From an uncultured Bacteroidales bacterium (GTDB lineage Bacteria; Bacteroidota; Bacteroidia; Bacteroidales; FEN-979): a stretch of 64,000 nt of DNA. The notes beneath the pieces are model-generated. The model was not told the origin of the DNA and searched no databases. It was given only the letters and a program-made list of their open reading frames with translations. Below, one piece after another: positions 11,557-43,758 of the stretch (its first letter is position 1; every line of letters begins with the position of its first letter). Location: the NCBI GenBank assembly GCA_903916595.1, contig CAIWXI010000014.1, positions 1 to 64,000 on the forward strand, in the 5' to 3' direction. A program made the translations under genes and the position numbers.

Positions 11557-12627
11557 TCAGTTTAGTAATTGCCCGAACAGTTCCAGTAATTTCTCCCTGT
11601 GCTGCGGCATCGAGAAATTATTCAATGCACGCTGCCTGGCTTCAGCGCCTGTATTTAATTCCAAAGCCTGCCTAATGGCCTTTTCGAGCGCATCGGGATT
11701 ACGTTTTTTTACAATGACCCCCGTATCTCCTATGGCATCTGGTATTCCGTTCACCTCTGAGCCCACCGGTATACATTCGCAGAACATGGCTTCATTGAGC
11801 GTGAACGGCATTCCTTCGGTGATGGAAGCCTGCACAAAAACCCTGGCCCTGTTGTAATTCATGAACAGCACATCGTCGGGACAATAAAACAATACCGTCT
11901 CCAGGTTGGGTATCTCGCTCACCTGGTAATTCTGCTCAATCCATGGGAGAAACTCCTTTCTGAATCCGATCAAAGTGAACTTCTTCTCAGGCATACGCCT
12001 TGCCATTTCGATGAACAGATCGAAGCCTTTATTAAAGAAATCATTCACGCCACCCATAGTGCCCACCGTCAGAATCCTGTCGTTCTCCTTGGGAATCGAG
12101 CTGTCGCGGAAAAATTTCGTTGTATCCACCCCGTTCGAAATAATCGTCATCGGGGTCTTTATATCAGGGATGTAAAATTTTATCCCGTCCTTCTTCCCAT
12201 CGTCTGTATAGTAAAAATTTTCGTGCCAGATCAGTGACTTATGGTTCGGAATCACGTGGAATGCATTCCGCAGTGCATATTTAACGCACAACCCCCTGAA
12301 TTTCTTATAATAAACTCCTTTCTTCAGCTCCGGATAGCAGATGGCTTCCTGTCCACCGGCAAATATGATCACTTTTTTCCCCAGCAAATGGCCCATGAAA
12401 ACCAGTATTGCAGAATGGTAATCGGCGAACCAGGTTACAAAAGCCAGGGAATTTTTCTGATTTCTCAGAATAAACCATCCCAGCGAAAGCATACTGCTTA
12501 TAAACTTCCACCCCCTGCGATTTTTCGGCAAAAGAAAGGAACCCACCTGGTAGCGTTCTTCCAGAATCTGCTGGTCGATCGCGTAGAACGTGGTATCTCC
12601 GCCTTTGATATAAAGGATCTTCTTCAT
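11557..12627 (-). CDS. GT4-type glycosyltransferase
   Basis: This 356-residue protein has a GT-B fold pattern. The N-terminal half carries a membrane-proximal segment and GKKVIIFAGGQEAICYPEL, and the C-terminal half has ILTVGTMGG, ITEGMPFTLNEAMFCECIPVGS (the E-x7-E nucleotide-sugar binding signature of family 4) and GDTGVIVKKRNPDALEKAI. It should transfer a sugar from a nucleotide-sugar donor to a lipid-linked acceptor at the inner membrane. Its ATG overlaps the TGA of the upstream regulator (TGATG), and the flippase follows 33 bp later, so the three are an operon. Donor and acceptor are unknown. Confidence 0.85.
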   Translation of the reverse strand: MKKILYIKGGDTTFYAIDQQILEERYQVGSFLLPKNRRGWKFISSMLSLGWFILRNQKNSLAFVTWFADYHSAILVFMGHLLGKKVIIFAGGQEAICYPELKKGVYYKKFRGLCVKYALRNAFHVIPNHKSLIWHENFYYTDDGKKDGIKFYIPDIKTPMTIISNGVDTTKFFRDSSIPKENDRILTVGTMGGVNDFFNKGFDLFIEMARRMPEKKFTLIGFRKEFLPWIEQNYQVSEIPNLETVLFYCPDDVLFMNYNRARVFVQASITEGMPFTLNEAMFCECIPVGSEVNGIPDAIGDTGVIVKKRNPDALEKAIRQALELNTGAEARQRALNNFSMPQHREKLLELFGQLLN

Positions 12628-16161: not shown

Positions 16162-16227
16162 CGTCATCCGTCATCTGATATCTGTCATCTGATATCTGTC
16201 ATCTGATATCCGATATCTGATATCCGC
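16162..16227 (+). repeat. 7-bp tandem repeat array (GATATCT/GTCATCT family)
   Basis: About nine degenerate heptamers (GATATCT, GTCATCT, GATATCC) begin some 16 bp after the stop codon of the FG-GAP protein. The same family occurs at 23268-23316 and, in the opposite strand sense, inside nadE (42834-42914). The rest of the 16146-16444 gap holds the mraZ control region and nothing else that I recognise. Confidence 0.85.
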
Positions 16228-18411: not shown

Positions 18412-20561
18412 CCCAGGATATAAGAAAAGGCATATTGACAAAAGTTTACCTGGTATACCTGGGGGTATTGTTGTTTGGTCTGGCCATACTGGGAAGGGCT
18501 TTTTACATCCAGAATTTCGAGAAGAAAGACATGCTCGAAATGGCCAAAAAGCAGGAAATGCAGATATTCCCGATTGAAGCGGTGCGCGGTAACATCCTTT
18601 CGGATGACGGGACTCTGCTGGCTGTTTCAGTTCCGATTTTCGAACTTCGCATGGACCTTCTTGCAGATTCCCTGACCGACGAGGTGTTCAAAAACAATGT
18701 TGATTCTCTGGCTATTTGCCTGGCCGGATTGTATAAAGACCGGTCGCCCATGCAGGTCAGGGATAAATTATGGGAAGCCAGAAGGAACCAGGAACGATAT
18801 TTCCTGATCAAACGGGATGTAAACTATCCCGAGCTGAAAAAGATCCGCAGGTTCCCGATTTTCAAGAGAGGGAAATACAAGGGCGGGCTTATTGTGATCC
18901 CCCAGTGGGAACGGGAGCTTCCGTATAAATCTCTGGCCCGAAGGATTATCGGTTATGAAAAGGGGGAGGCCGACAAAAAAGTATATGTAGGACTTGAAGG
19001 CAAATTCACGAAAGAGCTTGAGGGAGTCGGGGGTTCCAGGATGATGCGCCGGGTAGGGGGCAGCAACTGGATGCCTGTAGATATCGAGAGCCAGGTAGAA
19101 CCTCAAAACGGGCTTGACATTGTTACCACTATTGATATTGAGTTACAGGACATGGCTGAAGCTGCATTGAGGAGAGAGCTGATTGCCGACAGCGCCGATC
19201 ATGGCTGCCTGATAGTGATGGAAGTAAAAACCGGATATGTCAAGACGATGGTGAATCTCGGAAGGACGAAGAAGGGCACGTATGAAGAAGTTTTCAACTA
19301 TGCCATTGCCGAGGCAAATGAACCCGGTTCGACATTTAAACTTGCCTCATTCCTGGTTGCGCTGGATGACGGCAAGGTCGAACTAAACACTCCTATACAG
19401 GTGGGGAACGGTATTGTCTATTTTGCCGGCCATAAGATCCAGGATTCACATCCGCCTACCGCCTCGGTGTATACAGCCCAGCAGGTCTTTGAAAAATCCT
19501 CGAATGCAGGCACAGCCAAAATGATCTATGCCAACTATTCGGCTGATCCTCAGAAATACATCGACGGACTGTACCGGCTTGGACTAAACAGACCGCTCAA
19601 CCTGCAGATAGACGGAGAAAGGCCGCCTTATATAAAGAACACCAAAAGCAAATACTGGTCAGATCTCTCCCTGCCCTGGATCGCCTATGGCTACGAAGTT
19701 GCCCTGGCTCCCATACACCTTATAACATTATACAATGCCATTGCAAACAAAGGCAAAGTGGTCAAACCTCTTTTTGTGAAAGAGATACTTAAGAACGGTG
19801 TTGCAGTGAAAACATTCAAGCCGGTGGTGCTGAATCCCCAGGTCGTTTCTCCTTCGACCGTAGAGAAAGCCATGATCCTGATGGAAGGTGTCGTCCTGCG
19901 CGGCACCGGCACATCCATCGCCAGCCCGATATACAGGATAGCAGGAAAGACAGGTACCGCACAGCTGGCGCAAGACAACCGGGGGTATAACCAGGGGACC
20001 AGGAACGTCAGGTATAAAGGTTCTTTCTGCGGCTTCTTCCCTGTGGATGACCCCAGGTACAGCATGATGGTGGTCATAGTGGATCCCAAAAAAGGAAAGT
20101 ATTATGGAGGTGCGGTAGCCGCCCCGGTTTTCAGGGAAATTTCCGACAGGCTGTATGCAATGCAGAAGGACATTATCTTCCCGGCCAGGAAAGACACTCT
20201 GAACAGTCCTCTGCCCTTTGCCCATACCGGTTGGCAAAGCGATCTTCAGGAAGCTTACAGCGCTCTCGGCTACAGCACGGGCAAAGTAAATATAAAAGCA
20301 ACATGGACCCAGGTCATTTCTGCCGACAGCAAAATTGTATTATACCCACAGCTGATCTCCAGAAATCTGATGCCCGATGTAAGTGGAATGGGACTCAGGG
20401 ATGCTTTATTCCTATTGGAGCAGATGGGGCTTAATGTATCAGCCAACGGGAAAGGGTCGGTCGTGGCCCAGTCAGTCAAGCCAGGAACACTTGTAAACAA
20501 AGGAATGCCGGTTGTACTGGAACTCCAGGGTCCGAAAGCAAAAGAAAAAAAGCAGATATGA
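18408..20561 (+). CDS. ftsI: penicillin-binding protein FtsI (peptidoglycan transpeptidase) with PASTA domain
   Basis: FtsI (PBP3) cross-links septal peptidoglycan. The 717-residue product has an N-terminal membrane anchor (VYLVYLGVLLFGLAILG), a dimerisation domain, and a transpeptidase domain with the active-site serine in GSTFKLAS, the second motif SSN in FEKSSNAGTAK, and KTGTAQ. One C-terminal PASTA domain spans roughly residues 655-708 (LMPDVSGMGLRDALFLLEQMG and VKPGTLVNKGMPV). PASTA-bearing FtsI is common in Bacteroidota. It overlaps ftsL and murE by 4 bp each, implying coupled translation. Confidence 0.95.
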   Translation: MTQDIRKGILTKVYLVYLGVLLFGLAILGRAFYIQNFEKKDMLEMAKKQEMQIFPIEAVRGNILSDDGTLLAVSVPIFELRMDLLADSLTDEVFKNNVDSLAICLAGLYKDRSPMQVRDKLWEARRNQERYFLIKRDVNYPELKKIRRFPIFKRGKYKGGLIVIPQWERELPYKSLARRIIGYEKGEADKKVYVGLEGKFTKELEGVGGSRMMRRVGGSNWMPVDIESQVEPQNGLDIVTTIDIELQDMAEAALRRELIADSADHGCLIVMEVKTGYVKTMVNLGRTKKGTYEEVFNYAIAEANEPGSTFKLASFLVALDDGKVELNTPIQVGNGIVYFAGHKIQDSHPPTASVYTAQQVFEKSSNAGTAKMIYANYSADPQKYIDGLYRLGLNRPLNLQIDGERPPYIKNTKSKYWSDLSLPWIAYGYEVALAPIHLITLYNAIANKGKVVKPLFVKEILKNGVAVKTFKPVVLNPQVVSPSTVEKAMILMEGVVLRGTGTSIASPIYRIAGKTGTAQLAQDNRGYNQGTRNVRYKGSFCGFFPVDDPRYSMMVVIVDPKKGKYYGGAVAAPVFREISDRLYAMQKDIIFPARKDTLNSPLPFAHTGWQSDLQEAYSALGYSTGKVNIKATWTQVISADSKIVLYPQLISRNLMPDVSGMGLRDALFLLEQMGLNVSANGKGSVVAQSVKPGTLVNKGMPVVLELQGPKAKEKKQI

Positions 20562-22018
20562 AGAAGCTGAGTCATATACTGCCATCTGATCTGGTCCTTG
20601 AAAGCAGGGGCGATACTGATATTTTGGTGAGCGCTTTGCAGTTTGATTCCAGGCAGGTCGGGCCCGGCGATGTGTTTTTCGCTGTCAAAGGCAGTGTTTC
20701 CGATGGCCATGATTTTATACCGATAGCCATAGAGAAGGGCGCTTCTGTTATTGTTTGTGAGTCCTTCCCTGAAGAGACGCCTCTCCTCACAACCTGGATC
20801 AGAACCTCTAACAGCGCCATTTCGCTTGGAGTGATGGCATCGGCCTTTTACGGCAATCCATCGCAAAAACTGAAGCTGATTGGCATTACCGGGACGAACG
20901 GAAAGACCACCACCGTTACACTTCTGCACAGGCTCTTTACCGACATGGGTTATAATACCGGCTTACTAAGTACCATCAGGAACCAGGTACATCTGCGCGA
21001 AGTTCCCTCCACGCATACTACTCCCGACCCTGTTCAGATCAACCGCCTGCTTGCAGAAATGTGCGACGAGGGCTGTGAGTACTGCTTCATGGAAGTGAGT
21101 TCGCATGCGATAGATCAGAAGCGAATTGCAGGATTGAAATTCAGCGGAGGCATATTCTCCAACCTCACGCATGACCACCTCGATTATCATAAAACATTTG
21201 ATGCATATCTTAAAGCCAAAAAGGGCTTTTTTGATGGCTTGCCAGATGATGCTTTTGCACTTGTGAACAAGGATGACAGGAACGGAGCCGTTATGCTCCA
21301 AAATACCAGGGCTTCAAAATACACTTACAGCCTGCAGTCTATGGCCGATTTCCACTGCAGAATACTGGAAAACCAATTCATTGGCCTGCACCTTAACATC
21401 GACGGGCAGGAGGCGTGGTTTCGCCTGATCGGTTCATTCAATGCATACAATCTTCTGTCGGTATATGCAACTGCCGTGCTGCTGGGGCAGGAACCTTCGC
21501 AGGTGCTGACCATTCTTAGCAGTCTTAGTCCGGTGGAAGGCCGGTTTAATTATATCCATGGTCAGGGAAACATTACAGCGGTCGTGGATTACGCGCATAC
21601 CCCCGATGCCCTGAAGAATGTACTGGAGACCATTAACGACATCCGCCATCATAAAGAAAACCTTATTACTGTAGTTGGTGCCGGGGGCAACCGTGATGTG
21701 GCAAAAAGGCCATTAATGGCGAAAATTTCAGTACAACTCAGCGACCAGCTTATTCTAACTTCCGACAATCCGAGGTTTGAAGATCCTGATACCATCCTTG
21801 AAGAGATGGTGAAAGGCATTGACGCTTCTGATTTACCTAAAGTATTGGTAATCGCAGACCGCCGTCAGGCTATCAAGACCGCGGTGACTCTGGCCAGGGA
21901 AAACGATATCATCCTGATCGCGGGTAAAGGCCATGAAACATACCAGGAGATCAGGGGTGTAAAATACCCTTTCGACGACAGGGACATAGTGAAAGAATTA
22001 TTCTTACTAAAACCATAG
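20558..22018 (+). CDS. murE: UDP-MurNAc-L-Ala-D-Glu--meso-2,6-diaminopimelate ligase
   Basis: MurE adds the third residue of the stem peptide in the cytoplasm, using ATP. The 486-residue product has the three Mur ligase domains: N-terminal UDP-binding (FDSRQVGPGDVFFAVKG), central ATP-binding with P-loop GITGTNGKTTT, and a C-terminal domain with HTPDALKNVL and the substrate-specificity motif DNPR (SDNPRFEDP). DNPR indicates meso-diaminopimelate rather than lysine. Overlaps ftsI by ATGA; mraY follows 3 bp after its stop. Confidence 0.96.
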   Translation: MKKLSHILPSDLVLESRGDTDILVSALQFDSRQVGPGDVFFAVKGSVSDGHDFIPIAIEKGASVIVCESFPEETPLLTTWIRTSNSAISLGVMASAFYGNPSQKLKLIGITGTNGKTTTVTLLHRLFTDMGYNTGLLSTIRNQVHLREVPSTHTTPDPVQINRLLAEMCDEGCEYCFMEVSSHAIDQKRIAGLKFSGGIFSNLTHDHLDYHKTFDAYLKAKKGFFDGLPDDAFALVNKDDRNGAVMLQNTRASKYTYSLQSMADFHCRILENQFIGLHLNIDGQEAWFRLIGSFNAYNLLSVYATAVLLGQEPSQVLTILSSLSPVEGRFNYIHGQGNITAVVDYAHTPDALKNVLETINDIRHHKENLITVVGAGGNRDVAKRPLMAKISVQLSDQLILTSDNPRFEDPDTILEEMVKGIDASDLPKVLVIADRRQAIKTAVTLARENDIILIAGKGHETYQEIRGVKYPFDDRDIVKELFLLKP

Positions 22019-22021
22019 CCT

Positions 22022-23275
22022 ATGTTATACTATCTTTTTACATGGCTGCACAAAGCGTTCGGGTTCCCGGGAGCCGGGGTATTCCAGTATATTTCTTTCA
22101 GGGCCGCTTTTGCGTTGATCACATCACTGTTTATTTCTATGATCATCGGAAAATCGCTGATTGGATTTCTTCGGCGCAAACAGGTCGGGGAAACCGTGAG
22201 GGACCTGGGGCTTGAAGGGCAAAAATCAAAACAGGGCACCCCAACCATGGGCGGATTGATCATCCTTGCGGCGATCCTGGTTCCTACCCTGCTATTTGCC
22301 AAACTGCACAACATTTATATTATCCTGATCATCGTCGCAACAGTATGGCTTGGTGCGATCGGCTTCCTTGACGACTACATCAAGGTATTCAAGAAGGACA
22401 AGAAGGGATTGCCCGGCAAGATCAAGGTGCTTGGCCAGATCGGGCTGGGTCTTCTTGTCGGATTTACTATGTATTTCAGCGACCGTGTAGTGATACGGGA
22501 GAAGACGAGGAACCAGGCTTATGTGGCTTCCCAGGACATATTCAAGGTAGAAAACGCATCGGAGAGGATAAGTCCGTTTTCGAGAACTGAAATTAAATCG
22601 ACAAAAACCACCATCCCGTTTATAAAGCACAACGAGTTCGACTACAGCTGGCTTATTTCATGGATCAGTCCGAAGGCAAAAGACTATACCTGGCTCATAT
22701 TTATCCCTATCATCATTTTTATCATCATTGCAGTATCTAACGGGGCAAATCTAACCGACGGGCTTGACGGGCTGGCGAGCGGTACGTCGGCTATCATAGG
22801 AGTGACATTAGGAGTACTGGCGTATGTTTCAGGTAATACGAATTTCGCCGATTACCTCAACATTATGTACATTCCGAATACCGGGGAGCTGGCCATATAT
22901 ATTGCAGCATTTGTAGGGGCCTGTATAGGTTTTCTCTGGTATAACTCCTACCCGGCCCAGGTGTTTATGGGCGATACAGGCAGCCTTGCTTTGGGTGGCA
23001 TCATCGCTGTTTTCGCGATCATCATCCGCAAAGAGATCATGATTCCGATTTTCTGCGGGGTTTTTCTTGCGGAAAATATTTCGGTTGTAATGCAGGTAAG
23101 TTACTTCAAATACACCAGAAAGAGATTCGGGGAAGGCCGGAGGATATTTAAGATGTCGCCCCTACATCATCATTATCAAAAACTTGGATACCATGAAGCA
23201 AAGATCGTGATGAGATTCATGATCGTTGGGATCATGCTGGCCGTTTTGACGATTGTAACCCTGAAGATCAGATAG
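22022..23275 (+). CDS. mraY: phospho-MurNAc-pentapeptide-transferase
   Basis: MraY moves phospho-MurNAc-pentapeptide from UDP to undecaprenyl phosphate, forming lipid I in the inner membrane. The 417-residue product has about ten hydrophobic segments, and the motifs [17 protein letters not shown] (Mg-binding aspartates), [10 protein letters not shown] and [11 protein letters not shown], ending near [12 protein letters not shown]. It is longer than the E. coli enzyme because of an extra stretch (residues ~155-220) between helices, as in other Bacteroidota. Its stop codon lies inside the start of a heptamer array (23268-23316). Confidence 0.96.
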
Positions 23276-23316
23276 CTGTTATCTGTTATCTGATATCTGA
23301 TGGCAGATGGCTGATA
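23268..23316 (+). repeat. 7-bp tandem repeat array (TATCTGT/GATATCT family)
   Basis: Degenerate heptamers such as TATCTGT, TATCTGA and GGCAGAT start in the last codons of mraY and fill most of the 66-bp gap before the truncated murD. Same family as 16162-16227. Confidence 0.7.
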
Positions 23317-23341: not shown

Positions 23342-23890
23342 ATGACTTTAGAATCCATGGCATTACAAGGAAACACAACGATTTACGAGAATCTTGCCGC
23401 AACGGTCTCAGGGCGTATCCGTGAGACCCGCAAGGCTTGTTTCAAGGAATGGTTTTCTGATTTCAGCAATACCGAGCACAGGCTGGAGTTCGTCGCCAAC
23501 ATTCATGGCATCGAGTTCATCAACGATTCCATGTCGGTGAGCCTCAATGGTGCATGGTTTGCCCTGGAATCCATGTCGAAACCTGTGATCTGGATTGCCG
23601 GAGGGGGGAGTACTCATGAAGAAATGAAGTTCCTTAGATCAGTGGTTGAAAAGAAAGTCAAGGCTATCATCTGTCTGGGGCCGGACTATGCGTCGGTTCA
23701 TGAGGCTTTCAGCGATCTTGAAATTCCTATTGCCGACACGTATACCATGGCAGAGGCAGTAGAAGCTGCATATTATATGGGAAAGAAAGGTGATGCCACT
23801 TTGTTCTCTCCGGGATGCAGTGAGGATGAGATCTTCACAGGTCATGAAGCCAGGGGGATAGCTTTCAGAAAAGCAGTAAAGGATCTTTAA
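23342..23890 (+). CDS. stand-alone MurD C-terminal domain, probably without ligase activity
   Basis: The 182-residue product occupies the murD position of the dcw operon but covers only the last third of MurD. It starts at the end of the central domain (ALQGNTTIYENLAATVSGRI) and runs to the normal C-terminus. The UDP-MurNAc-Ala domain and the ATP domain with its P-loop and carbamoylated lysine are missing. Comparing with the MurD pattern: NDSKATN is here NDSMSVS, GGDGK is GGGST, and SPACASL is SPGCSED, so positions matching E. coli Thr321, Lys348, Ser415, Leu416 and Phe422, which hold D-glutamate, are all changed. The frame is intact and the body (HRLEFV, GIEFINDS, KPVIWIAGG, KKGDATLFSP) well kept, which suggests retained structure. 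Role unknown. Confidence 0.85.
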   Translation: MTLESMALQGNTTIYENLAATVSGRIRETRKACFKEWFSDFSNTEHRLEFVANIHGIEFINDSMSVSLNGAWFALESMSKPVIWIAGGGSTHEEMKFLRSVVEKKVKAIICLGPDYASVHEAFSDLEIPIADTYTMAEAVEAAYYMGKKGDATLFSPGCSEDEIFTGHEARGIAFRKAVKDL

Positions 23891-23900
23891 GAGAATTGCA

Positions 23901-25124
23901 ATGGCTGTCGTTTTGAAAAACATCAAAGGAGATAAGGTAATCTGGATAGTGGTTGTGATATTATCTATTTTCTCACTGCTTGCTGTCTACAGTTCTACCG
24001 GTACTCTTGCTTATAAGAAACAGCATGGGAATACCGAGTATTATCTCATGAAACATTTGCTTATCCTGGGGTTTGGTTTTGGCCTGATGTACTTTACCCA
24101 TCTTATTAAGTATACTTATTTCTCAAGGATTTCTCAGATCGGACTGATTCTTACCCTGCCCTTGCTGGCATTTACGCTAGTCTCAGGAACCAATCTGAAC
24201 GAGGCTAACCGCTGGCTTACCGTACCGATAGTAAACCTTACCTTTCAGAGTTCCGATATGGCAAAACTGTTTCTAATCATGTACCTTGCCCGGGTACTGA
24301 GCAAAAAACAGGAGCTGGTAGAAGATTTTAAGAAAGGGTTCCTTCCGGTTATTCTTCCTGTTATAGCCGTTACCATACTTATTTTACCTGCGAACTTCTC
24401 CACTGCAGCGATCCTGTTCGTCACCTGCCTGGTGCTGATGTTCATAGGCCGTATCAGTCTGAAATATATTTTTTCTCTGATCGGGCTGGGGTTTGTTTCG
24501 GTGATTATGATCTTTGCCATCGCGATTGTTTTCCCTCATCTGTTTCCCCGTGGTGAAACCTGGGTAAAACGCGTGGAACATTTTATAAACGATGAAAAAG
24601 CCAGCGCCGATGCCACTTACCAGGTAGACCAGGCTAAGATTGCCATTGTGTCGGGTGGGGTTTTTGGAAAATCGCCCGGAAAGAGCACACAGCGCAATTT
24701 CCTTCCCCATCCTTATTCCGATTTCATTTTTGCGATTATCATTGAAGAGTATGGCCTGATCGGGGGCAGTTTCGTGATGCTCCTTTACCTTATATTATTT
24801 TTCAGGGTGATTCGGATCGCCGGAAAATGCCAGGGGAATTTCGGAGCCTTGCTTTCCCTGGGGATAGGCTTCAGCATGGTATTTCAGGCCATGATCAATA
24901 TGGCGGTGGCTGTGAATCTTTTCCCTGTAACAGGTCAGACACTGCCCCTGATCAGCATGGGTGGCACTTCAATCTGGTTCACCAGCATCGCGATAGGGAT
25001 TATTCTAAGTGTAAGCAGATGGACTGAAATAGACACGAAGAATGGCACTGAACTTGAAATACTCACCGATCGGGGGAATACCCTGATGACAGAACCGGTT
25101 CCGTTAGCAGGAGCAGTAATATGA
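23901..25124 (+). CDS. ftsW: septal peptidoglycan glycosyltransferase FtsW
   Basis: FtsW is the SEDS-family polymerase that makes septal glycan strands from lipid II with FtsI. The 407-residue product has about ten membrane segments and SEDS features: ANRWLTVP, the loop before the large periplasmic region (QVDQAKIAIVSGGVFGKSPGKS), SDFIFAIIIEEYGLIGG and LPLISMGGTS. The tail after residue ~375 is short and soluble. Starts 10 bp after the MurD-like gene and overlaps murG by ATGA, placing it firmly in the operon. Confidence 0.95.
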   Translation: MAVVLKNIKGDKVIWIVVVILSIFSLLAVYSSTGTLAYKKQHGNTEYYLMKHLLILGFGFGLMYFTHLIKYTYFSRISQIGLILTLPLLAFTLVSGTNLNEANRWLTVPIVNLTFQSSDMAKLFLIMYLARVLSKKQELVEDFKKGFLPVILPVIAVTILILPANFSTAAILFVTCLVLMFIGRISLKYIFSLIGLGFVSVIMIFAIAIVFPHLFPRGETWVKRVEHFINDEKASADATYQVDQAKIAIVSGGVFGKSPGKSTQRNFLPHPYSDFIFAIIIEEYGLIGGSFVMLLYLILFFRVIRIAGKCQGNFGALLSLGIGFSMVFQAMINMAVAVNLFPVTGQTLPLISMGGTSIWFTSIAIGIILSVSRWTEIDTKNGTELEILTDRGNTLMTEPVPLAGAVI

Positions 25125-26257
25125 TAAAGATAATCATCAGCGGAGGAGGTACAGGGGGGCATGTGTTCCCGGCTATTGCCATTGCCAATGCCATCAGGGC
25201 TAAGCGGGCTGATGCTGATATTCTGTTCATTGGTGCCAGGGGAAAGCTGGAGATGGAAAAGGTCCCAGCTGCAGGGTACCGTATCGAAGGCCTCAGCATT
25301 GCCGGGTTTCAGAGAAGAATTACTTTGAAGAACCTGAGTTTCCCTTTTAAACTCTTAAGCAGTATGATCAGAGCAAAAAAACTGGTCTCAGAATTTGCTC
25401 CAGATCTTGTTATAGGTGTTGGCGGTTATGCCAGCGGACCGGTTCTGAAAACTGCTGTTTCAATGAACATACCGGCGCTGATCCAGGAACAGAATTCCTT
25501 CCCGGGTGTTACAAACCGCATGCTGGCCGGCAAAGTTCAAAAGATATGTGTGGCCTACGAAGGCATGGAAAAATATTTTCCGAAAGAGAAGCTCGTGCTT
25601 ACAGGGAACCCGATACGGCAGGATATAGAAGGGATGAAGGGTATTGAAGGAATGAAGGATAAAAGGAATGAAGGAATGAAGGTGTTTGGACTTGAGGAAG
25701 GCAAGACCACGGTGCTTGTGATTGGCGGCAGTCTCGGGGCCGGCACTATCAACAGTAGTGTTCTGAACTGTGTAAAAAACGGCAAGCCGGAGGGGAATGT
25801 ACAATGGCTGTGGCAATGCGGAAAATATTATTATGAAAACATCAGGGCAGAAGTCGGATCTCCCGGTCTGGCCGAAGTAAAAAGCAGTGTGAGTCTGTAT
25901 GCTTTTATCGACCGTATGGATCTGGCCTATTCGGCTGCCGATATAGTGATATCCCGGGCAGGGGCAATCGCGATTTCCGAGTTATGCGCTGTTTCAAAAC
26001 CCGTCATCCTGATCCCCTCTCCCAATGTGGCAGAAGACCATCAGACAAAAAATGCCATGGCGCTTTCCCAAAAAAAAGCAGCCATCCTCCTTAAGGATAA
26101 TGAAGCAGTGGAGAAACTTTCAGGAATACTTGAATTTTTGATCCGGGATATCAGTATGCAGGATGAATTAAAAAGAAACATAAAAGCCATGGCCGTTCCC
26201 GGGGCAGCAGAAAAAATCGCATCAGAAGCATTGAAATTAATACATATTAAAAGTTAA
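25121..26257 (+). CDS. murG: UDP-GlcNAc--lipid I GlcNAc transferase
   Basis: MurG adds GlcNAc to lipid I at the inner face of the membrane. The 378-residue product has the GT28 features: GGGTGGHVFPAIAIA at the N-terminus, GVGGYASGPV, QEQNSFPGVTNR, IGGSLGAGTIN in the second domain, and SRAGAIAISELCAVSKPVILIPSP for UDP-GlcNAc binding. Between the two domains (residues ~168-190) the usual linker is replaced by a stretch with three EGMK units, encoded by an octamer array at 25627-25682. This adds about six residues compared with the usual Bacteroidota linker. Overlaps ftsW by ATGA. Confidence 0.95.
   Translation: MIKIIISGGGTGGHVFPAIAIANAIRAKRADADILFIGARGKLEMEKVPAAGYRIEGLSIAGFQRRITLKNLSFPFKLLSSMIRAKKLVSEFAPDLVIGVGGYASGPVLKTAVSMNIPALIQEQNSFPGVTNRMLAGKVQKICVAYEGMEKYFPKEKLVLTGNPIRQDIEGMKGIEGMKDKRNEGMKVFGLEEGKTTVLVIGGSLGAGTINSSVLNCVKNGKPEGNVQWLWQCGKYYYENIRAEVGSPGLAEVKSSVSLYAFIDRMDLAYSAADIVISRAGAIAISELCAVSKPVILIPSPNVAEDHQTKNAMALSQKKAAILLKDNEAVEKLSGILEFLIRDISMQDELKRNIKAMAVPGAAEKIASEALKLIHIKS
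25627..25682 (+). repeat. 8-bp tandem repeat array (GAAGGAAT family), translated within murG
   Basis: Degenerate octamers GAAGGAAT, GAAGGGAT and GAAGGATA, the reverse-complement sense of the array before ftsL. They encode the EGMKGIEGMKDKRNEGMK linker of MurG. One unit is altered to GATAAAAG at the register where TGA would fall in frame. Confidence 0.75.
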
Positions 26258-26266
26258 TACGCGATA

Positions 26267-27658
26267 ATGAAACCGGAAGAAATTTCATCGGTATATTTCC
26301 TCGGTATAGGGGGCATAGGCATGAGCGCCCTGGCTCGCTATTTCAAACATCTTGGAGCTGTAGTGCACGGTTACGATAAAACCCCGACGGCATTAACAGA
26401 TCAGCTTTCGCGTGAAGGCATGAAGATTCATTTTGAAGAAAACCCTGACGAGATTCCTGATGACACCGAGCTGGTCATATACACTCCTGCCATCCCATCT
26501 GACAATAAAGAATTTACGTTTTTTCTCAGAAAAAAGACGAGGATGATGAAGCGCTCGGAAGCGCTGGGCATGATCTCTTCAAACTATTTTACTATTGCAG
26601 TTGCCGGCACTCATGGCAAAACAACCACTTCCGGGCTCATTGCCCATATCCTGAAAAGTGCGGGCGTACCTCATATTGCTTTCCTTGGTGGCATCTTGAA
26701 AAATTACGGAACTAATTTCCTGATTGAAACTTCCGGATCAAAACCGGCAATTTGCGTTGTGGAGGCCGATGAATTTGACCGGTCCTTCCTTCAGCTCAGA
26801 CCCGATATTGCTATAATCACTTCGGCTGATCCCGATCATCTCGACATTTATCATACGCAAAAGGAAATGCTTGCTGCCTTTGGAGAATTCACGGGAAAGA
26901 TTAGAAAAGGCGGGTCGCTGATACTGAAAGCTGGGGTAAAAATAAAACCACTTCAAAAATCTGACTATAATCTATTTTCTTATTCTTTAAACAAAACGAA
27001 GGCCTCAGAAGCAACGAATTCAAAAGATTTTATGGCAGCAGGGGCCGTTATAAAACAAGGCGTTTACCACTATGATTTCTGCAGTGCAAATGATGTGTGG
27101 AAGGATCTTGTTCTCGGTTTGCCTGGCTTGTTTAATCTTGAAAATGCTGTTGCGGCCACATCCGCTGTATTCCTTCTGGGATTAAGCCGTTTGAAAATAG
27201 CTAAAGCCCTGAAGTCGTACCAGGGAGTTGTCAGGAGATTTGATCTTCAGATTAAAAGACGAGATTTTGTGTATATCGACGATTATGCCCATCATCCCGA
27301 AGAACTTAAAGCCTGCATTGAAGCGGTAAGAAAAATGTATCCCGGAAGAAAGATCACCGGTGTTTTTCAGCCTCATCTGTTTTCCCGTACCCTCGACCTG
27401 GCATCGGAGTTCGCTGCGAGCCTTGACCTACTCGATGAAGTTGTATTACTTGAAATATATCCAGCCAGGGAAAAGCCCGTTGAGGGAGTTAGCAGTGCCC
27501 TGATATTGGAAAAACTGAAATGCAAGAACAAAAAGATTATCGAAAAAACTAAACTCGTGAAGTATCTGAAAGGTCTAAAGCCAGAGGTACTGCTTACCCT
27601 GGGGGCAGGAGATATTGACCAGCTTGTTAAACCCGTGAGAAGAGCTTTTGAGAAATGA
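26267..27658 (+). CDS. murC: UDP-N-acetylmuramate--L-alanine ligase
   Basis: MurC adds L-alanine to UDP-MurNAc with ATP. The 463-residue product shows the N-terminal GIGGIGMSALARYF glycine-rich UDP-binding motif, the ATP loop AGTHGKTTTSG, VEADEFDRSFLQLRPDIAIITSADPDHLDIY in the central domain, and DDYAHHPEEL with FQPHLFSRT in the C-terminal domain. All are intact, unlike the nearby MurD-like protein. It follows murG by 9 bp and overlaps ftsQ by ATGA. Confidence 0.96.
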   Translation: MKPEEISSVYFLGIGGIGMSALARYFKHLGAVVHGYDKTPTALTDQLSREGMKIHFEENPDEIPDDTELVIYTPAIPSDNKEFTFFLRKKTRMMKRSEALGMISSNYFTIAVAGTHGKTTTSGLIAHILKSAGVPHIAFLGGILKNYGTNFLIETSGSKPAICVVEADEFDRSFLQLRPDIAIITSADPDHLDIYHTQKEMLAAFGEFTGKIRKGGSLILKAGVKIKPLQKSDYNLFSYSLNKTKASEATNSKDFMAAGAVIKQGVYHYDFCSANDVWKDLVLGLPGLFNLENAVAATSAVFLLGLSRLKIAKALKSYQGVVRRFDLQIKRRDFVYIDDYAHHPEELKACIEAVRKMYPGRKITGVFQPHLFSRTLDLASEFAASLDLLDEVVLLEIYPAREKPVEGVSSALILEKLKCKNKKIIEKTKLVKYLKGLKPEVLLTLGAGDIDQLVKPVRRAFEK

Positions 27659-42081: not shown

Positions 42082-43758
42082 ATGAAAATCGCTCTCGCCC
42101 AGCTGAACTATCGTATCGGTGATTTCGAAGAGAATGTTACCGCGATCATCCTTGGCATACATAAGGCTAAAGACCAGGGCGCCGATCTTGTTGTGTTTGC
42201 TGAATTATCTGTTTGCGGATATCCGCCCCGTGATTTCCTTGAGTTCGATGATTTTATTGAAAAATGCTACCAGGCTGTGTTGCGTATTTCTATTGAATGT
42301 ATTGATGTTGCCGCCATTGTCGGAAGCCCTTCGGTAAACCCTGCCGACAAGGGTAAACCTCTGTATAACACGGCTTATTTTCTTTCTGATGGCAGGGTGC
42401 AGGCTTTGGCTCATAAAACACTGTTGCCAAATTACGATGTGTTTGATGAATACCGGTATTTTGAGCCCAACCGGCTTCCGTATGATGTGGTTGAATACAA
42501 GGGCAGCAGGATTGCCATCACGATATGCGAGGATCTCTGGAACATCGGCGATGATTCGCTTTATGTAAGGAATCCGATGGACGAGCTGATGAAATTAAAT
42601 CCAGATCTGCTGATCAATATTGCAGCTTCTCCTTTTAATTATACCCAGCCGGTTTCGCGTTTTGATGTGCTGAAAAGGAATGCCCTGACCTATAAAATTC
42701 CGGTGTTTTATGTGAACCATGTAGGCGGACAAACCGAGTTGCTGTTCGACGGGGGGTCGATGGTGTTGGGGTCAGACGGGTTGCTGCTTGTTCAACTTAA
42801 GAGGTTCAGCGAGGATTTTCGGATACTTGAATGTCAGATAACAGATAGCGGATATCAGATAGCAGATGTCAGATATCAGATATCAGATAGCAGATATCAG
42901 ATAGCAGATAGCGGTTCCCGGATTTCATTGATCCACGATGCGCTTGTGATGGGGATAAAGGATTATTTCGTCAAGATGGGTTTTTCTAAAGCCATTCTGG
43001 GTCTGTCGGGGGGTATTGATTCGGCTGTAACACTTGTTCTTGCAGCCCAGGCCTTAGGGCCGGCCAATGTGAAAGCTGTCCTCCTTCCATCGAAATTTTC
43101 ATCTGATCACAGTATAAAAGATGCCAGGGACCTTGCCGGCAACCTTGGAGTTGCATATGAAATTATTTCCATTGAAGAATCGTTCAGGGCTTTTGAACAC
43201 AGCCTTGAGTCTCAGTTCAGGGGTCTGCCATTCAACCTTACCGAAGAGAATATCCAGGCAAGGATACGGGCCGTTATCCTGATGGCTTTATCGAACAAGT
43301 TCGGTTATATTTTATTGAATACATCCAACAAAAGTGAGGCTGCAGTCGGTTATGGCACATTGTACGGGGATATGTGCGGTGGCTTGTCGGTGCTGGGTGA
43401 TGTGTATAAAACACAGGTGTACGAACTGGCCGCGTATATCAACCGTGAACGGGAGATCATACCTCAGAATTCAATAAACAAACCTCCTTCAGCAGAGCTA
43501 CGTCAGGACCAGAAGGATTCGGATTCATTGCCCCAATACGATATCCTTGATAAGATTCTGTATCAGTATATAGAGCAGAGAAAAGGTCCGAAAGAGCTGA
43601 TGGAAGCAGGTTTTGAGGAAGCTACAGTAAGGCAGGTTTTAAAACTGGTGAACACCAGTGAATATAAGCGTTATCAGACACCTCCTATACTCAGGGTCTC
43701 CCCCAAAGCCTTCGGGATGGGCCGTCGTATGCCTATTGTTGGGAAATATCTTTCCTGA
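42082..43758 (+). CDS. nadE: glutamine-dependent NAD+ synthetase
   Basis: NadE amidates deamido-NAD with ATP, using ammonia from glutamine. The 558-residue product has an N-terminal nitrilase-type glutaminase (FAELSVCGYPPRD with Glu; LLPNYDVFDEYRYFEP with Lys; AITICEDLW with Cys) and a C-terminal synthetase with P-loop GLSGGIDSAVTLVLA, NTSNKSEAAVGYGTLYGDM and PSAELRQDQKDSDSLP. Residues ~252-279, the linker between the two domains, are encoded by a heptamer array (42834-42914) and read as a seven-residue repeat of the form I-A/S-D-S-G/R-Y-Q. The linker lies outside both active sites. Confidence 0.95.
   Translation: MKIALAQLNYRIGDFEENVTAIILGIHKAKDQGADLVVFAELSVCGYPPRDFLEFDDFIEKCYQAVLRISIECIDVAAIVGSPSVNPADKGKPLYNTAYFLSDGRVQALAHKTLLPNYDVFDEYRYFEPNRLPYDVVEYKGSRIAITICEDLWNIGDDSLYVRNPMDELMKLNPDLLINIAASPFNYTQPVSRFDVLKRNALTYKIPVFYVNHVGGQTELLFDGGSMVLGSDGLLLVQLKRFSEDFRILECQITDSGYQIADVRYQISDSRYQIADSGSRISLIHDALVMGIKDYFVKMGFSKAILGLSGGIDSAVTLVLAAQALGPANVKAVLLPSKFSSDHSIKDARDLAGNLGVAYEIISIEESFRAFEHSLESQFRGLPFNLTEENIQARIRAVILMALSNKFGYILLNTSNKSEAAVGYGTLYGDMCGGLSVLGDVYKTQVYELAAYINREREIIPQNSINKPPSAELRQDQKDSDSLPQYDILDKILYQYIEQRKGPKELMEAGFEEATVRQVLKLVNTSEYKRYQTPPILRVSPKAFGMGRRMPIVGKYLS
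42834..42914 (+). repeat. 7-bp tandem repeat array (TCAGATA/GCAGATA family), translated within nadE
   Basis: About eleven heptamers, TCAGATA or GCAGATA with variants, encode a heptapeptide repeat (three heptamers = seven codons). Every unit in the register that reads AGA-TAx carries T, not G, at the third place, so the in-frame stop TAG is avoided; units in the other registers freely carry G. Confidence 0.9.

Follow-up and report, generated by a model that had tools for sequence, protein, structure and literature searches.

A stand-alone MurD C-terminal domain in the murD slot of a Bacteroidales division operon, and a candidate internal start in full-length murD genes of the order

The short open reading frame between mraY and ftsW

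The window analysed here is a stretch of 64,000 nucleotides from an uncultured Bacteroidales bacterium, and on its forward strand it includes the division operon genes murE (20558–22018, intact in profile scans), mraY (22022–23275; TIGR00445, 328.8 bits), ftsW (23901–25124; PF01098, 253.8 bits), murG (25121–26257, an open reading frame (ORF) named from reading its sequence, without a family-library scan) and murC (26267–27658, intact; TIGR01082, 348.2 bits). The murD slot between mraY, the 5' neighbour, and ftsW, the 3' neighbour, is occupied by an ORF of 182 amino acids on the same strand (23342–23890). This matches the MurD model TIGR01087 at positions 264–440 of 441 only (E 1.5e-34; 119.9 bits, below the family cut-off of 211.95 bits), and it passes the threshold for the Pfam Mur_ligase_C domain (PF02875; 29.4 bits, cut-off 28.4). 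An earlier note on this DNA had described the last third of MurD alone, in an open frame between mraY and ftsW, and these matches confirm that observation of a stand-alone MurD C-terminal domain (CTD). The protein shares its slot, its fold and its CTD homology with the MurD ligase of other division operons, but the TIGR01087 coverage shows that the substrate and ATP domains are missing. An AlphaFold model (34 aligned rows) had a mean pLDDT of 78.7, with ten-residue blocks at 83–93 over residues 51–160, 69 over 161–170 and 87–90 beyond, and just 51–63 over residues 1–50. The model resembles MurD CTDs, and the top Foldseek matches were MurD structures, with alignments of about 145 columns (7u35, E 3.9e-12, query TM 0.70).

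The dN/dS of the short CTD, a comparison proposed in the earlier note, was far below 1 in all 28 pairs from eight genomes of the genus (0.018–0.137, with several of the synonymous distances near saturation), and the domain is under purifying selection as a protein. It is somewhat less constrained than ftsW, as seven of these pairs gave 0.015–0.035 for ftsW and 0.026–0.063 for mraY. The truncated form was also looked for in relatives, and was found with an open frame in 35 of the 37 sampled genomes of the family, as well as in the wider order; in the two exceptions, ftsW is at a contig start (G036) or the genome is 69% complete (G029). The earlier note had allowed that relatives might retain a full-length murD and that an assembly error might account for the short one here, but the short form in 35 family genomes excludes such an error. 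A decaying pseudogene or assembly artefact, for which the truncation itself speaks and nothing further, is refuted by the same open frames together with dN/dS values well below 1. It is also very improbable that the ORF is a passive remnant serving only to space mraY and ftsW or to couple their translation, since its amino acids are conserved and it has been kept across the family, despite a fit between the two genes that can be tight (mraY-to-CTD gaps of 2–5 nt in three out of 12 listed members of the same family).

The spacer before the CTD in the window contains a degenerate heptamer array (23267–23316), which we do not consider to be part of the mechanism. The array that the earlier note described does exist, but the suggestion that it marks a deletion was rejected because the gap length is variable (2–129 nt among the same 12 members) and similar heptamers occur in further spacers of the window and beside the second murD of this genome. 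Arrays of this ATCTGAT type were seen in the genome at 16163–16226, 23267–23316 and 42834–42912 and at 11644–11685 of locus L039, and one of them falls within the coding sequence, towards the 5' end, of the glucosaminidase gene that follows murD2.

The residues that hold D-glutamate in E. coli MurD had been reported as replaced in the short protein, and in the window sequence this is so, with Met at K319, Val at T321, Thr at K348, Glu at S415, Asp at L416 and His at F422 (positions follow the E. coli literature numbering). It is not the case for the group as a whole, as the 34 short rows often keep them (K319 in 20, T321 in 17, K348 in seven and S415 in 24). The short CTD can be called catalytically dead, as the earlier note had it, because the ATP and substrate domains are missing, but the loss of glutamate-site residues is lineage-specific. 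When 25 short rows were compared with 48 full-length rows, H267, N268, N271, T321 and K348 were found to be relaxed in the short forms, and D317, N324, W327, W341, I342, K362, V363 and F429 were maintained.

A second ligase and the distribution of the short form

The earlier note had also proposed that the ligase function had moved to another gene, and the genome search that it suggested recovered one MurD over the cut-off in the profile search of the window's genome, a full-length protein on a different contig (C96, 294 bits). Directly 5' of this is a MurL homologue (NF041275, E 2.5e-69, 79–400 of 458 aa), which scores 233.9 bits against the cut-off of 700 of this Xanthomonadales model, and the glutamate racemase MurI was not found in this draft genome (best E 1.4, 97.78% complete). 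Xanthomonas uses MurD2 to add L-Glu and MurL to invert it on the UDP-MurNAc-dipeptide, and the preference for L-Glu depends on a Glu and an Arg that correspond to D182 and K348 of the E. coli enzyme (PMC8788868). The C96 ligase has both residues, and MurD2-type ORFs of MurL loci have Glu at D182 in 34/34 rows (two loci being included twice) and Arg at K348 in 33/33 readable rows. On these residues and neighbours, a MurD2-type ligase with a MurL homologue next to it appears to have taken over the ligase step, and such a route would explain the displacement of the operon MurD. The arrangement is like that of Xanthomonas in that the MurL homologue adjoins a Glu/Arg-type ligase where MurI was not found; it differs in that the host belongs to the Bacteroidota, which are not named in the available passages of PMC8788868, the MurL homologue falls below the Xanthomonadales cut-off, the activity is a predicted one, and the old murD persists, either as the CTD or as a full gene. 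We note that MurL and MurD2 are held in a single open frame in G115 and G142, as apparent fusions of 885 and 949 codons (G115:C12:29775–32396 and locus L072, G142:C329).

Among 149 genomes of the order, MurL was detected in 55 and MurI over the cut-off in 89, with both in none and neither in five (the MurL count includes G111, with a 36-residue piece only, and G088, with a piece at a contig end). A large clade of the order has MurD2 and MurL and no detectable MurI; this gene content is observed and the corresponding enzyme activities are predicted from it. The operon-type MurD of the 55 MurL genomes was a stand-alone CTD in 22, full-length in 30 (including G088, G131 and G142, where a contig ends within the gene) and undetected in three. 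Two of these three, G056 and G164, have assemblies without the operon ftsW. In the third, G113, and in no other MurL genome, the CTD was not found although an operon-type ftsW is assembled; the CTD may be dispensable there because this ftsW has no adjoining CTD (at locus L242, G113:C160:20000–27000, ftsW lies apart from mraY with no MurD CTD within the 7 kb read). No stand-alone CTD was found in the 88 readable MurI genomes out of 89 (G042 is split over two contigs, and G053, 70% complete, was without a match).

One further genome, G051 (2.1 Mb, 98% complete), has the short CTD between mraY and ftsW (locus L051, G051:C4:290000–309000), yet MurI, MurL and a full-length MurD were all not found in it by profile searches; a murC ORF was also not listed between its murG and the genes that follow. 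When the 22 genomes with the short form were taken together with G051 and G113, a MurD over the cut-off was found in 20 of the 24, with contig-end pieces in G094 and G175 and none in G090 and G051. A second set of genomes on named contigs, representing 50 of 80 loci, gave MurL in 13, MurI in 36, both in none and neither in one, and is not independent because it overlaps the first (at least G303/G088, G308/G125, G324/G154 and G327/G062). The short form is order-wide and recurrent, and the separation of MurI from MurL across the order would bring a large group of Bacteroidota into the range of the MurD2/MurL route.

It should be noted that the full-length operon MurDs of MurL genomes retain K115, N138, E157, D182, H183, K198, K319, T321, K348 and S415 in the rows that are not cut, with N271 changed to Asp in 2/30. 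Since the catalytic residues are intact, the old MurD catalysis seems still to be selected in these genomes, and a simple takeover by MurD2 does not explain such retention where MurI was not detected. These 30 full-length rows (e.g. loci L090, L122 and L133) have, where they are not cut, the D-Glu-type D182 and K348 and come from genomes in which MurI was not detected.

A tree of mraY and ftsW with 82 rows (34 with the short form, 30 full-length with MurL and 18 with MurI) required 12 changes of the short state, of which the well-supported branches force at least five, and it included sister pairs of mixed state (G062 full and G175 short, support 95; G183 full and G070 short, support 99). A single clade of the 32 short rows of the MurL set was rejected under a model without mixtures (log-likelihood lower by 155, p-AU 0.0053; 11 changes in the free tree). 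The tree of the CTD itself showed five changes, with only one forced by well-supported branches and with long branches meeting; the domain is too short and long-branched for counting origins, several of which this tree does not show, and we dropped it for this purpose. The mraY and ftsW tree supports the reading that several lineages lost the upstream two thirds of murD independently and that each retained the CTD.

An internal methionine with a start-like mRNA context

The ATG start codon of the short ORF (23342–23344, forward strand) is homologous to an internal Met in the full-length MurDs of the order. Twenty short loci were available from outside the family, and 14 of these start at the Met that is position 1 of the profile and one at position 2, with the remaining five having diverged N-termini. 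Met was present at −9 or −11 before the G-x-H-N motif in 114/115 full-length genes that could be anchored on it (from a set of 117 unique genes, many of which came from 80 loci picked for similarity to the short form), and at the start column in 78/80 of those similarity-picked loci (four short and one cut). The MurI genes of the order, which were not picked for similarity, had Met at −9 or −11 in 46/58 and lacked it in 12/58. The residue following the internal Met is Thr or Ser in 96/114. Mucilaginibacter pedocola (L220) and Draconibacterium sediminis (L196) are among the species whose murD has this Met.

In Flavobacterium johnsoniae, initiation takes place without Shine-Dalgarno sequences and is modulated by low mRNA structure together with A at −3, −6, −12 and −13 (PMC6847099). 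The 18 bases 5' of the internal ATG in the 114 genes are 45.8% A and 8.2% G, compared with 47.1% and 15.2% for 90 presumed true starts and 31.2% and 23.8% for 728 other internal ATGs. Predicted folding energies were −4.5 kcal/mol for the internal ATG, −7.1 for the true starts and −11.0 for the other internal ATGs. A was found at −3 in 68% and at −12 in 67% of the genes, but at −6, where it is not enriched, in only 14%. As a computational signature, the context of the internal ATG resembles that of true starts.

The lack of structure was ranked against synonymous recodings drawn with each gene's own codon use, and amino-acid choice alone is not the source of the signal because the comparison is made among such recodings. 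The internal site had a rank of 0.80, compared with 0.41 for random windows and 0.35 for another common Met located about 17 residues downstream, and a scan along the gene on a reduced set of positions found a single low-structure peak around the internal ATG, with no such peak in the same scan of 29 MurD2 genes. The MurL-negative genes of the named-contig set gave 0.80 (32 of 35). An initial sample of 18 MurI genes gave 0.66 and was not significant (12/18 above 0.5, sign test p 0.24). The enlarged set of 58 MurI genes gave a rank of 0.69 where the Met is present (38/46 above the gene's own background, p 1.4e-6) and 0.48 where it is absent (6/12, p 0.79), and the difference between the two groups (p 0.0008) was also seen in a matched GC range, with kinship being ignored in all of these p values.

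Beyond the order the signal is weak, both in the rest of the class (0.57 with Met, n=8; 0.32 without, n=3) and in other classes (0.61 with Met, n=19; 0.52 without, n=13), and a phylum-wide sample had Met at −9 in 25/43 readable genes (50 loci, with seven left out for want of an ORF match). An extension of the internal-start claim to the phylum was dropped, and we restrict the claim to the order and sampled near relatives because both Met and signal are partial or weak outside it. An internal promoter was considered as well, using TAnnTTTG, which we take to be the promoter motif, and was rejected; the motif occurs once near the internal ATG and 37 times elsewhere in 115 genes, and per kb it is less frequent around the ATG.

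This signature suggests that the full-length murD carries an internal start at the Met about nine residues before G-x-H-N, from which a free CTD of 182 amino acids would be made in addition to the ligase. We consider that there is about one chance in two that the short ORF in the window is the surviving second product of such a two-product murD. A lesser though real possibility is that full-length genes use no internal start, the Met and its A-rich surroundings being features of a flexible segment between domains. After each deletion this segment would simply have offered the best start from which a domain able to fold could be made, with a job for the CTD arising later. This would be in keeping with the hydrophobic character of the aligned position (Ile, Leu, Phe or Val in 16/58 MurI genes), with the placing of Met at −9, −11 or −7, which alternates as in a strand, and with the weak signal outside the order. 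It sits less well with the low structure, which goes beyond amino-acid choice, and with the way that the signal tracks the Met and is absent from the common Met downstream.

What a free C-terminal domain might do

The free CTD would be non-catalytic, most likely with a docking or regulatory function close to MraY, MurG, FtsW and the Mur ligases. In other bacteria, Mur ligases have interactions with MurG and MreB (PMC6420597), and these interactions make docking or regulation beside MraY, MurG and FtsW the likeliest job for the domain, though we suggest it only tentatively. It is improbable that the CTD instead partners or regulates MurD2, or senses glutamate or a nucleotide. The CTD does occur with MurL in 22 genomes, and with neither MurL nor MurI in G051. 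Against this reading, a full-length MurD was not found in G051, and the drift of the ligand residues T321 and K348 in short forms argues against a conserved glutamate sensor.

The wider reading, which we put forward with some reserve, is that murD of the Bacteroidales type may be a gene within a gene, encoding both the ligase and a free, unrecognised and non-catalytic CTD belonging to the wall or division machinery, and that lineages which switched to MurD2 and MurL repeatedly deleted the rest of it. This would be similar to RpnS, a C-terminal domain made from an internal start within a larger gene (PMC10327210), and ArcB has also been named as an internal-start pair (PMC11005335). The murD case differs from both, as far as the available parts of these sources go, in being predicted from conservation and mRNA context, and in having several lineages that retain the inner product only. 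No report of a stand-alone MurD CTD or of an internal murD start was found among the open-licence literature matches listed, which argues only weakly that none exists.

As an enzyme of the cell wall, MurD has been studied closely and is a target for drugs, and if the CTD does have a separate job then murD knock-outs and inhibitors would conflate two functions, and the organisms with the CTD only would be natural separation-of-function mutants. A structural role for a Mur ligase fold is known from PAP11, a MurE-like protein of the plastid RNA polymerase. This is like the role proposed here for the CTD, and unlike it in that PAP11 is a whole ligase of a different Mur family working in an organelle. 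We note that the fold search with the CTD model also included plastid polymerase chains (8qma_O, 8r6s_Q, 8ras_Q and 8w9z_N), the last of which is named as MurE ligase-like.
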